A stretch of 30,240 nt of DNA from a virus: positions 1 through 30,240 of IMG/VR virus record IMGVR_UViG_3300030107_003570. The stretch is one strand, 5' to 3'. Shown piece by piece: positions 11,590 through 24,206 of the stretch (its first letter is position 1; the number at the start of each line of letters is the position of its first letter). A model generated the notes under the pieces. It was not told the DNA's origin and made no database searches. It saw only the letters and a list, made by a program, of their open reading frames with translations. The position numbers and the translations under genes are program-made.

Positions 11590-12266
11590 ACAATTAATTT
11601 AGATTTTGGTTTATTCATTTCTCTAGGCTTACCAAAGACATTAAAACTAAAAGATCTACGTTCTCCTTTTGTTCTAAAAGGATATACCATATGATACATC
11701 CACCAAGGAAATAAATAATAATCTCCAACCTTTGGGCGGATTCTTACTGTGTTAGTTGAAAATAATTGGACTTGTCCATATTGCATTTCAATACCACCAG
11801 CAGTTGGATAGTGATCTTTATCCTCTCTATCCCATTCTTCTTGTATACCTTCAGGTAAAGATAAATACCCTACACAGGACATATGACAATTCGTATGATA
11901 ATGTAAGGGATTAAAATCACCTGCAAAAGTTCTTACATACCAACCCGATTTAAATACTATTTTCTGAAGTTCATGAGCATTATCAGGATGTGCTTCAATA
12001 TAAGCACTAACTAATTTTTGAAAATAAGGAGCCCATTTTTCAAATACTTCAGGGCTAATAATTAGTTCTTGTTTAACATTACCTACTAGATCATCAGAGA
12101 AATCATGCAGCTTACTTTTTTCTTTACTAGCAACAATGCTATTGCAATCTTTATTGAAATCATCAATAAGATCTTGAGGTAATTTACAATGACCTATTGA
12201 TGGACCAAAAGGCCTATATATTTTTAGTTCTTTATTCTCTTTGTTTAATCCACTAAAATGACCCAT
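11586..12266 (-). CDS. 2OG-Fe(II) oxygenase-like protein
   Basis: This 226-aa protein has the core of the double-stranded beta-helix oxygenases. HYH (His122, His124) with CHMSCVGYLSLP follows it, then GDYYLFPWWMYHMVYPF with the distal His192, and ERRSFSFNV where Arg203 or Arg204 would bind 2-oxoglutarate. The first metal motif reads His-x-His rather than the usual His-x-Asp; the FPxxxxH...R.S.SFN end fits the phage-type 'putative 2OG-Fe(II) oxygenase' family. Such enzymes hydroxylate protein or nucleotide substrates in phages, mostly unidentified. It is the last gene of the leftward block and ends against the lipoprotein gene. Confidence 0.7.
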   Translation of the reverse strand: MGHFSGLNKENKELKIYRPFGPSIGHCKLPQDLIDDFNKDCNSIVASKEKSKLHDFSDDLVGNVKQELIISPEVFEKWAPYFQKLVSAYIEAHPDNAHELQKIVFKSGWYVRTFAGDFNPLHYHTNCHMSCVGYLSLPEGIQEEWDREDKDHYPTAGGIEMQYGQVQLFSTNTVRIRPKVGDYYLFPWWMYHMVYPFRTKGERRSFSFNVFGKPREMNKPKSKLIV

Positions 12267-15560: not shown

Positions 15561-15816
15561 TAACATATCCCTTGATACTTTGAAGGGAAAAAAACCAATA
15601 AAAGATAAAGATGAGTATAATAAATATAACTTATCTATTATCTTATGTTGGCTATTGCTACCTACACAACGGTGGGGGAGCAAAAGCCTAATTGCTCGTT
15701 TTCATGGTTGCAAACATAAAAATAGAGTGTATCGTCTGATTCGTTTTTATCAATCTAATCAACGCTTTAAACACTATGTGAATAAAGCATTAAAGGAATA
15801 TAAATGCGAAAGTTAG
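15523..15816 (+). CDS. DnaA domain IV-like DNA-binding protein
   Basis: From ATG at 15523 the 97-aa product resembles the DNA-binding domain IV of DnaA without the AAA+ part. It has an initial helix MIVNIQKYLCSTYNISLDTL with the linker KGKKPIKDKDEY, a helix NLSIILCWLLL, then SLIARFHGCKHKNRVYRLIRF (about 55-75), matching the 'IG..FGGRDHSTV..A...I' signature helix-turn-helix in order and spacing. The asparagine/charged pattern differs from canonical DnaA. It could bind host oriC-type boxes or the phage origin. The start lacks a Shine-Dalgarno, so it may be leaderless or begin later. Confidence 0.5.
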   Translation: MIVNIQKYLCSTYNISLDTLKGKKPIKDKDEYNKYNLSIILCWLLLPTQRWGSKSLIARFHGCKHKNRVYRLIRFYQSNQRFKHYVNKALKEYKCES

Positions 15817-16289
15817 AAAAACCAGAACTTATAGAAACAATAATAGACAAAAAAAAAGTATGGTTAAACATACGTGAATCTCGTCTATTATATATGTTTC
15901 ATCGTAGATTAATATCATGGGAAGAATATGAAGCTGGTTCTAGATACCGATTAATGTGTGAACTGCAAGGCGGAGGAACGGGTAATGTTATTAAAGAACG
16001 TATTGATAATAATAATACTGATTTTATGTCTATGCAGATGGGTGCAGCTTTAGCTGTCGCAGAAGTTGATGAGGAATTAGGTGAACATCTTTCTCAAATT
16101 ATGAAGTTCTTTTGTCATTATAATTATGGTATTATTGAAATTGCAAACATACTAGGCACAACTGAACGTAAAATGTCTAACTATGTACATGAAGGTTTAT
16201 CTAGATTAGCAGTTTATTATGGGTACAAAAAAGTTAGACATACAATCAGAGGCCAAGGAACTAAGGTTAAAAGACAAAAAGTATCTTAA
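15804..16289 (+). CDS. Helix-turn-helix protein (DUF6456/antiterminator-like)
   Basis: This 161-aa protein has an N-terminal region with SWEEYEAGSRYRLMCELQ (about 38-55), then a helical middle. At residues 109-141 it has GIIEIANILGTTERKMSNYV, a helix-turn-helix of the sigma-region-4 kind used to read DNA. AAAGGA at 15793-15798 is the ribosome binding site. The 'Y.AG.RYR' element is like that of DUF6456 proteins of alphaproteobacterial phages, which have been compared with late-gene regulators. A role as transcription regulator is likely; antitermination is a guess. Confidence 0.5.
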   Translation: MRKLEKPELIETIIDKKKVWLNIRESRLLYMFHRRLISWEEYEAGSRYRLMCELQGGGTGNVIKERIDNNNTDFMSMQMGAALAVAEVDEELGEHLSQIMKFFCHYNYGIIEIANILGTTERKMSNYVHEGLSRLAVYYGYKKVRHTIRGQGTKVKRQKVS

Positions 16290-16676: not shown

Positions 16677-16958
16677 ATGGCTAAAATATTTAAATTTCCT
16701 AAAAGCAAAGAGTTATATTCTCAAAAATTTATTAAGAATATAAACCCTAATGCCATAGGAGATTTCATTCATAAACAACATCCTGATATATCTATAAGAG
16801 CTGCAGATGCAATGGCTTTAGCCATCATCTACAGTACCCATTTACAATTAGTTTTTGAAGAAGAAGGATCTGCAATTCCTATAGATGTTATGAATAAGTT
16901 TGAGGATAATGATCATGAAATGTTTTTGTGGGCTAAACCTAAGCATACTTTGCATTAA
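16677..16958 (+). CDS. Hypothetical small protein
   Basis: This 93-aa protein begins MAKIFKFPKSKELYSQKF. A helical region SIRAADAMALAIIYSTHLQLVF then follows, and an acidic stretch EDNDHEMF. CCAGAGG at 16660-16666 precedes the ATG at a workable distance. It is the last gene of the short rightward block. No domain is recognised. Confidence 0.55.
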   Translation: MAKIFKFPKSKELYSQKFIKNINPNAIGDFIHKQHPDISIRAADAMALAIIYSTHLQLVFEEEGSAIPIDVMNKFEDNDHEMFLWAKPKHTLH

Positions 16959-17143
16959 ATTTAAAAGGACACACCATTAAGGTAATTAGCCAACGTGGTC
17001 GAGACTTGAGTTCTTATACGACTTAACCATGGTCTAGTCTGACGTTGATGTGTCCATCTAAATTTAGCGAACCAGGCAGTCTCCCACCTGGCTCTATCTC
17101 AGTTAGGTCGTACGAATTAGTATGCTCCTGCTGAGAATTCTGT
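16959..17143. ncRNA. Structured intergenic region between convergent operons
   Basis: Between the ends of the rightward (16958) and leftward (17144) blocks there is no gene. Positions 16967-17055 can form three nested helices: GGACACA with TGTGTCC (7 bp), CAACGT with ACGTTG (6 bp), and AGACT with AGTCT (5 bp). A second hairpin CCAGG/CCTGG (17072-17076 with 17087-17091) and a TCTCAG/CTGAGA pair (17097-17102 with 17131-17136) follow. No tRNA T-loop and no U-run is present. It may be a bidirectional terminator or a structured RNA. Confidence 0.4.
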
Positions 17144-21876: not shown

Positions 21877-22246
21877 ATTACCTTTCCGAGCTGATTCTAT
21901 GCTAGAATATAGCTCTTTATGTGTATCTACTTGACAATCATCAATCAATAAGCTCAATGTTATCAAGGGTTATAGAGCGATTCGGCAATCAATATATCAA
22001 TGGATTTAGCCCAGAGTATATTGACTACCAAACCGCAATTTAAAACAACAATTATTTTATCGCTGTCACAAGCGACAGAGATAAAATTATTTAACAACAA
22101 CAATCGCGACAAGCGATTGAAAGACAATTCGCCTGAGCGAATTGACGGGTTTGAAATCTACCCTGATCACATCGAGATTGATCTCGATTGATCAAATAGG
22201 GGGGTTTTGTACAACAACAACACAACAAAGAAAGAAGGAGGAAACT
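21877..22246. promoter_or_regulatory. Divergent control region (370 nt) between early and late operons
   Basis: No gene is convincing here. It should hold the promoters of the leftward block (start 21876) and of the rightward late block (22247). TTGACA (21931-21936) on the plus strand is a -35-like hexamer but has no good -10 at normal spacing. The right half contains four consecutive hairpins (22050-22193), then a GGGGGG/TTTT step and an A/C-rich, unstructured leader (ACAACAACAA type, 22211-22226) with AAGGAGG before the first late gene. A 63-codon frame at 22000-22191 overlaps the hairpins. Confidence 0.6.
22050..22193 (+). repeat. Array of four consecutive hairpins
   Basis: SL1 (22050-22091): ATTTTATC and CTGTC pair with GACAG and GATAAAAT, with one G.A mismatch, and three more pairs outside a T.T mismatch. 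SL2 (22101-22119): CAATCGC with GCGATTG, loop GACAA. SL3 (22125-22144): CAATTCGC with GCGAATTG, loop CTGA. SL4 (22165-22193): ATCGAGAT with ATCTCGAT, flanked by GATC on both sides. All stems except SL1 are perfect and the array is compact. Possible roles: origin, packaging site, regulator sites or leader RNA structure. Confidence 0.6.
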
Positions 22247-22636
22247 ATGGCATTACCAATCGCAGCAGGAGCTGCAAGATTGCTATATTCAATGACTAAA
22301 GGTGCTTTACGAGCAACTAGACACCTTTCGCCTTTTAAAAGTAAATTACATCATAGTGGCAAAGGTTTAGCAGATAAGACAGGCAAGTTTAAAAAAACTA
22401 GCTTTACTATGAAAAAAGGTAAAGGTTTTATAAGTGCTGGTGCTAGAGGTGGCGAATTAAGACCTTGGGCAAAAAGTACGCTTTCAGGAATGAAAAAAGT
22501 AGGATTTTCTGAGGGAGCTAGAGCTAAAACTTTATATGGCTACCAACGTGGTTATAAGCATCTTAAAAAACACAAGAAACTATATGGTTCAGGTGTAGCA
22601 GGTGCGGCAGCTTGGGACATTTTAGATAATGACTAA
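22247..22636 (+). CDS. Basic Gly/Lys-rich putative virion-associated protein, first late gene
   Basis: ATG at 22247 is chosen for its strong AAGGAGG 5 nt upstream; the longer frame from 22142 runs through the hairpin region. The 129-aa product is very basic. It begins ALPIAAGAARLLYSMTKGAL, has many KxGK patches, and ends with an Ala/Gly segment (GSGVAGAAAWDIL). The Lys-rich body with hydrophobic Ala/Gly ends recurs in 23154 and 23560. A DNA-condensing or ejected role is inferred from charge and position. Confidence 0.6.
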   Translation: MALPIAAGAARLLYSMTKGALRATRHLSPFKSKLHHSGKGLADKTGKFKKTSFTMKKGKGFISAGARGGELRPWAKSTLSGMKKVGFSEGARAKTLYGYQRGYKHLKKHKKLYGSGVAGAAAWDILDND

Positions 22637-23559: not shown

Positions 23560-23895
23560 ATGGCAAATGTAAACGGAAATTGGAAAGGTGGCAAAGCAGT
23601 AGTTAAGTATTCCAGAACAAAAGCTCTTGGAACTAAAGCTAAATTTGCGGTTCAAAAAGGAGCTGGAAAAATTGCTAGAAACTACAAAAGATATGTAGGA
23701 CCTTCTGCTACGTTAGCAAGAGGTATAGGTAAACTTGGTTTAGGAGTTGGTAAAACATTATTAAGATTTCCAGGTACAGCTTTAATTGGTACTGGTTTAT
23801 ACTATGGAGGTAAAGCTCTAGGTAAAAAATATGGTAGAGGTTATCGTTATTCTGCTGTTAGACAATTTGATAAAAAAGGTAGAAAAAGAATATAA
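23560..23895 (+). CDS. Basic Gly-rich putative virion-associated protein
   Basis: This 111-aa protein is basic (WKGGKAVVKYSRTKALGTKA), then has ARGIGKLGLGVGKTLLRFPG followed by TALIGTGLYYGGKALGKKYG, a Gly-rich amphipathic or hydrophobic stretch, and a basic C-terminus. It lies immediately after the 32-aa gene without a gap and overlaps the small terminase gene (TAATG). Probably belongs with the basic small proteins above. Confidence 0.55.
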   Translation: MANVNGNWKGGKAVVKYSRTKALGTKAKFAVQKGAGKIARNYKRYVGPSATLARGIGKLGLGVGKTLLRFPGTALIGTGLYYGGKALGKKYGRGYRYSAVRQFDKKGRKRI

Positions 23896-24206
23896 TGGAA
23901 GAAAAACAGAAACTATATCCTATAAAATCTACAAAAGGTGGAAAACGTGAAGGAGCTGGAAGACCTTTAGGCTCTAAAAGCACTAAACCTAAGTGGAAAT
24001 CTATGGACGAAATGTCTGTGAAATATCAACATTCGCCTTTAGATTATATGTTATCTGTGTTAAACAATCCTATGAGCTCACCTGAGCGAAAGATGTATGC
24101 TGCTGAAAAATCAGCTCCATATATCCATCCTCGGTTAGCTTCTTCAACTTCAAGAATAGGATCAGATGAACCAATCGAAATCAAAGTCCAATGGCAAAAA
24201 GATTAA
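23895..24206 (+). CDS. Terminase small subunit
   Basis: This 103-aa protein begins with a basic loop GGKREGAGRPLGSKSTKPKW, a typical DNA-binding entry of small terminase subunits. SPLDYMLSVLNNP and MYAAEKSAPYIHPRLAS follow, the 'YML.V.......R...A...APY.H..L' helix pair of the same family. It overlaps the large terminase by 41 nt. It would recognise the packaging start, possibly the nearby hairpin array. Confidence 0.75.
   Translation: MEEKQKLYPIKSTKGGKREGAGRPLGSKSTKPKWKSMDEMSVKYQHSPLDYMLSVLNNPMSSPERKMYAAEKSAPYIHPRLASSTSRIGSDEPIEIKVQWQKD

Follow-up and report, generated by a model that had tools for sequence, protein, structure and literature searches.

Hairpins Ahead of the Late Genes of an Aquatic Phage Are Part of a Larger, Strongly Conserved, and Probably RNA-Based Control Region

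The analyzed window is a viral contig of 30,240 nt (positions 1–30,240 of the IMG/VR virus record IMGVR_UViG_3300030107_003570). Its terminase is about 50% identical to that of Pelagibacter phage HTVC106P; the nearest named relatives are Pelagibacter phages, and the identity to the terminases of other Pelagibacter phages and of a Methylophilales phage was somewhat lower. Genes for the portal, the major capsid protein, and the terminase small subunit (23895–24206; phrog_641, E-value = 3 × 10−7) were recognized on the plus strand downstream of an array of hairpins, and an XRE-like gene was found within the minus-strand operon to its left. The array is located, as originally predicted, between divergent operons and 1.7 kb before the terminase small subunit gene. 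The first gene of the late operon (22247–22636, plus strand) encodes a protein of 129 aa that belongs to no known family and is poorly conserved between relatives. It is preceded by an A/C-rich stretch (22214–22246, plus strand) ending in the ribosome-binding site AAGGAGG (22235–22241), which is unpaired in the predicted fold, in agreement with the unstructured run described earlier. No tRNA genes were found in the window.

A repeat search recovered the four inverted repeats of the original prediction at their places on the plus strand. The 5′-terminal hairpin SL1 (22050–22091) has arms 22050–22067 and 22074–22091, which are 89% complementary with two mismatches; it was supported by folding and occurs in relatives at the same place with compensatory changes. 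Repeats and folding also revealed the variable middle hairpin SL2 (22101–22119; arms 22101–22107 and 22113–22119). SL3 (22123–22146; arms 22125–22132 and 22137–22144), which was confirmed to be similar to SL2 in sequence, was identified by repeats and belongs to a GA-stem-loop-stem-AC, or "GAC-framed", kind enriched in leaders of the clade: such hairpins were present in 84 of 144 leaders at 1.72 per kb, compared with 6 in 1,135 kb elsewhere. The number of middle hairpins varies between leaders. SL4, with upper arms 22171–22178 and 22181–22188, turned out to be longer than first claimed, as TGATCA at 22164–22169 and TGATCA at 22189–22194 add a lower stem past a bulged C. As plus-strand RNA, the region 22040–22246 had a predicted folding energy of −58.5 kcal/mol (z = −7.9), which was equaled by none of 200 shuffles, and the minus strand had z = −6.1. 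The hairpin array is far beyond chance.

A palindromic operator (21984–22029) was identified between the divergent promoters from repeats, relatives, and covariation, with arms 21984–21996 (GGCAATCAATATA) and 22017–22029 (TATATTGACTACC). Of the suggestion that the hairpins are operators for the XRE or HTH protein, the part that stood is a conserved palindrome just upstream; it is not inside the array. The operator arms co-vary between phages (GGTAATCAGTTAA/TTAACTGACTACC-like, GGTAATCGATTAA/TTAATCGACTACC, and GGCAATCAATATA/TATATTGACTACC), and the XRE protein varies as well (29–94% identity), a sequence pattern that looks as if operator and repressor had coevolved. A putative −10 region or transcription start of the late operon was placed at 22030–22045 on the plus strand, by eye in relatives, where it reads CAATATATAATAACAAC, and from the alignment. 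Two other promoter candidates were rejected, namely, a T7-like promoter at TATAGGGGGG, the upstream bases of which are not conserved, and a sigma-70 promoter at TACAG, for which the −35 is not consistent.

Relatives were collected by IMG/VR terminase searches (80 loci each) and by pattern scans, which supplied additional loci. The leader was found in well over a hundred contigs, and the clade carrying it is a broad one of aquatic phages with terminases 72–100% identical. Upstream of terL these loci share one design, namely, a palindromic operator, an AT-rich −10-like stretch, a long SL1, hairpins in A/C-rich linkers, a core, and the first late gene. In loci that include terL, this gene is found 1.5–3.3 kb downstream of the leader in the same orientation, and any XRE gene present is upstream, on the opposite strand. 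No such leader was found upstream of the late operons of HTVC106P and HTVC024P, and a nucleotide search against named phages gave only short matches (E-value from 0.2 to 10). No Rfam 15 family reached the gathering threshold on the window, the best sub-threshold match scoring 21.4 bits against the 48.6 required, and a literature search returned no description of a late leader of this kind. Among genome contigs, scanning gave a single match, in a Thermaerobacter MAG.

The most conserved part of the region, which the original prediction had not mentioned, is a fixed-length core around SL4 extending from GGGTTT to GGGGGGTT. Its layout is GGGTTT-N7-ACCC-N34/35-AGGGGGGTT, closed by TACA and followed by the ribosome-binding site and the first late gene. 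In the window, its plus-strand parts are the 5′ block GGGTTT-N7-ACCC (22147–22163), in which a GGGT/ACCC hairpin is possible (pattern scans, alignment, and spacing); the 34-nt spacer with SL4 (22164–22197), supported by repeats and by stems in relatives; and the 3′ block AGGGGGGTT followed by TACA (22198–22213), whose G run may pair with ACCC instead of GGGT, according to alignment, pairing energies, and spacing. Counting from the first G of GGGTTT, the GGGGGG run began 52 or 53 nt away, and the A before the run lay 51 or 52 nt away, in 143 of the 147 terminase-carrying loci, part of which were found by the core pattern itself; among unique cores, this held in 87 of 90. The GGGTTT/G-run pair was present in every locus with more than 3.3 kb upstream. 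Seventeen loci came from the terminase search alone and extended 3.1 kb or more upstream; the gap was 34 in all 17. Without exception, loci carrying clade genes had 34 or 35 nt between ACCC and AGGGGGG, and pattern matches with gaps of 31, 32, 36, or 37 were located in loci without clade genes.

A Watson–Crick central stem of 5–8 pairs was present in 53 of 66 deduplicated core elements, with widely differing sequences (ATCGACA/TGTCGAT, ATCGAGA/TCTCGAT, GATAGT/ACTATC, and GATTGT/ACAATC). The two ACCC pairings differed by a median of 4.3 kcal/mol, the form with the G6 run being more stable in 62 of 66 elements. Sister clades have ACACC, GTACC, ACCTC, or ACCTT in place of ACCC, with a central hairpin that is weak or different, and yet keep the 52/53-nt spacing; the C tract is broken in L239, L244, L249, L250, L260, L271, and L287. 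Since sister clades lose ACCC and yet keep the spacing, neither ACCC pairing is essential. The alternative pairings suggested a switch, but the sister-clade sequences argue against a strict one. The invariant parts are GGGTTT, AGGGGG, and the distance between them, and TACA is well conserved. The T run after G6 can be as short as two, so the core is not an ordinary intrinsic terminator, and a terminator scan of the plus strand of the leader found none between the promoter and the first late gene. Further runs of G5–G7, mostly followed by TTTA, were observed within 120 nt past the core (leaders L038, L058, L114, L147, L239, and others). TTAGGGGGGTTTTG was also observed in HTVC106P (L219, reverse strand near 1875), immediately ahead of the start codon of terL and without the rest of the leader.

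RNAalifold analysis of 13 leaders predicted 38 pairs, 15 of which showed double changes. Taken over SL1, operator, and core hairpin, the covariation score was 0.269, compared with a shuffled mean of 0.090 (0.269 was reached in 0 of 500 shuffles). This value is biased in favor of the structure, which had been derived from the same 13-leader alignment; when the structure was slid along the alignment, the score was at most 0.078. The signal was carried by the operator, in whose helix three of four pairs had changes on both sides, and by SL1, not by the core helices. Compensatory stem changes exceeded those in the controls, as expected of a conserved structured RNA leader. Covarying base pairs, which the original prediction had proposed to look for, were thus found by RNAalifold but not in an R-scape-like ungapped test of all 34-gap elements, where shifting stem registers and the dominance of shared descent left no pair with an E-value below 1.

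Fold stability in 62 leaders was higher on the plus strand (mean z = −5.5 vs. −4.9 on the minus strand; Wilcoxon p = 0.005). The leader helices contained 911 Watson–Crick, 5 G–T, and 3 A–C pairs, and another count of G–U against A–C pairs gave 26 and 26. GAC-framed hairpins occurred only in perfect form, single-mismatch forms not being seen. Selected RNA stems usually show more G–U pairs. Since the stems here are nearly pure Watson–Crick, the strand test is compatible with both RNA and DNA; such stems are unusual for RNA, and a constraint at the DNA level or correction by template switching may apply. The near-absence of G–U pairs, together with a GC-skew minimum at the array, leaves room for DNA-level roles, a replication origin among them.

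The leader region is almost certainly a conserved functional element, and there is a good chance that this element acts as RNA. The hairpins are part of a larger, apparently undescribed, strongly conserved, and probably RNA-based control region that heads the late (virion) genes of a large family of aquatic phages. The original proposal of a structured leader heading the late operon was supported, in that relatives keep its place, its orientation, and its pairing. We tentatively read 22030–22246 as a leader at the 5′ end of the late-operon transcript, working as a cis-acting structured RNA, which we would put somewhat below an even chance. Transcription would start just before SL1, and the hairpins, separated by A/C-rich linkers, would fold one by one as the RNA exits RNA polymerase. 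The core GGGTTT-N7-ACCC-N34/35-AGGGGGGTT would then form a compact unit, in which the partner of ACCC in most members would be either the GGGT before it or the G run after it, and this unit might alter RNA polymerase, or its choice between proceeding and stopping, where the late operon of about 20 kb begins. That its target would be elongation or termination, and not stability or translation, is suggested with more hesitation. Control of late transcription by the leader RNA is most likely, its mechanism being proposed from position and analogy. A bolder version, to which we give perhaps a modest minority chance, is a new class of rigid-length nascent phage RNA, with GGGTTT and GGGGGGTT blocks separated by 52–53 nt, that would reprogram the polymerase directly for the late operon of a large aquatic phage clade or serve at once as a late leader and a transcript-primed replication origin.

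In kind, the proposed leader would be like that of phage HK022, in which nascent put RNA alone suppresses pausing and termination via the beta′ zinc-binding domain. The put RNA consists of two stem-loops that bind RNA polymerase (PMC9378689). The likeness would lie in a tightly constrained, structured cis-acting RNA of about 70 nt close to where a phage operon begins, and by this analogy the present element might act on the polymerase. However, put belongs to the early operons, and its two stem-loops have a sequence of their own, whereas the late leader core consists of G3/C3/G6 blocks with one hairpin and is placed after other hairpins. The likeness to the lambda pR′-tR′ late leader, which works with the antiterminator Q, is one of position, between the late promoter and the late genes, but here no Q family was among the matches listed, and there is no ordinary terminator with a T run. 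Attenuators form mutually exclusive hairpins, and here ACCC likewise has two possible partners, GGGT and GGGGGG; unlike in attenuators, the C tract is lost in sister clades, the T run is weak, and there is no conserved leader frame, and the mutually exclusive helices are possible in most members without being conserved in all. To our knowledge, late-gene activation in aquatic phages of this kind is undescribed. With its exact internal spacing and its occurrence in well over a hundred contigs, the leader is a defined, testable control element; if RNA alone is what acts on the polymerase, the leader would represent a second kind of put-like element, outside the lambdoid phages.

Protection of late mRNA or preparation of translation is an unlikely role, in which hairpins with CAA-rich linkers would stop decay from the 5′ end and leave the ribosome-binding site accessible. 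The 5′-terminal hairpin in the leaders inspected, the A/C-rich unstructured run up to AAGGAGG, the variable number of middle hairpins, and the under-representation of ATG in the leader (163 seen vs. 247 expected from base composition) would suit it, but the fixed 52/53-nt distance between GGGTTT and GGGGGG and the invariant blocks would be left unexplained. That distance would correspond to five helical turns in a DNA-level site, where GGGTTT and GGGGGGTT would be protein half-sites 52–53 bp apart on one helix face and the palindromes DNA features. We consider this distinctly improbable: spacing kept even where ACCC and the hairpin are lost, stems almost devoid of G–U, and palindromes found only in perfect form are consistent with it, but helical phasing should also permit about 42 or 63 bp, whereas the four exceptions are single or few loci, none near 63, and the stem sequences vary freely, unlike a protein site.

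The chance is about as slim that the array is a replication origin, perhaps primed by the leader transcript through an RNA–DNA hybrid started at the G runs. The GC-skew check proposed in the original prediction gave a result in its favor, with the cumulative minimum at 22105 (maximum at 11609), and sense GC3 skew hinted at the same, being about 0 in the four plus-strand genes on the left side of the array, compared with mostly +0.1 to +0.5 in the others (one-sided p = 0.004 for 4 vs. 14 genes, which are few and not independent). Runs of G5 or longer were also more frequent after the core (3.24 per kb vs. 0.167 per kb elsewhere). However, the skew turns where operons diverge and converge, its arms are unequal, and gene strand alone can produce skew, so that both the GC skew and the GC3 skew could follow from gene orientation and expression; the array contains no DnaA boxes, TTATNCACA occurring only at 15777 and 29531. 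A role in packaging, as a cos or pac site recognized by the terminase, was also among the original suggestions; it is very unlikely and found no support: the array lies 1.7 kb before the small subunit gene in the main intergenic region, but many contigs continue straight through it, and the structure comes after a promoter-like stretch and before a ribosome-binding site. Ordinary coding sequence with incidental hairpins has a practically negligible probability and was rejected, as was coding combined with structure: an open frame of 63 codons (22000–22191), with no in-frame stop in the window except its terminal one, exists mechanically, but it is not conserved, two stops precede its terminal stop in the close relative L176, and all three plus-strand frames are stopped over the compared stretch in 62 of 63 leaders, the window included.

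No phage RNA polymerase or antiterminator was recognized among the proteins scanned, which were part of the ORFs. A highly conserved protein of 161 aa (15804–16289), whose gene adjoins a DUF968 gene, was assessed as a potential Q-like antiterminator and had an AlphaFold2 model with a mean pLDDT of 72. Fold searches yielded only a sigma-region-4-like helix-turn-helix (Foldseek E-values > 0.3; VIA Z up to 8.1, a range that the tool calls common), and no Q was present among the matches listed; judged from this model, the protein is a candidate late regulator, no more.

Two further structured places were observed in the window. The noncoding gap between converging genes at 16957–17143, the DNA of which is 84–88% conserved over 110–146 nt in L199, L211, and L154, has neither an Rfam match nor a tRNA; on either strand, its predicted fold is better than that of shuffled sequences (z = −2.8 and −3.5), with a helix GGACACA/TGTGTCC, and the gap is possibly a second structured RNA. 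At 21888–21915, a hairpin lies in the 5′ leader of the divergent minus-strand operon, just before its ribosome-binding site, and relatives carry hairpins of other sequence at the same place.
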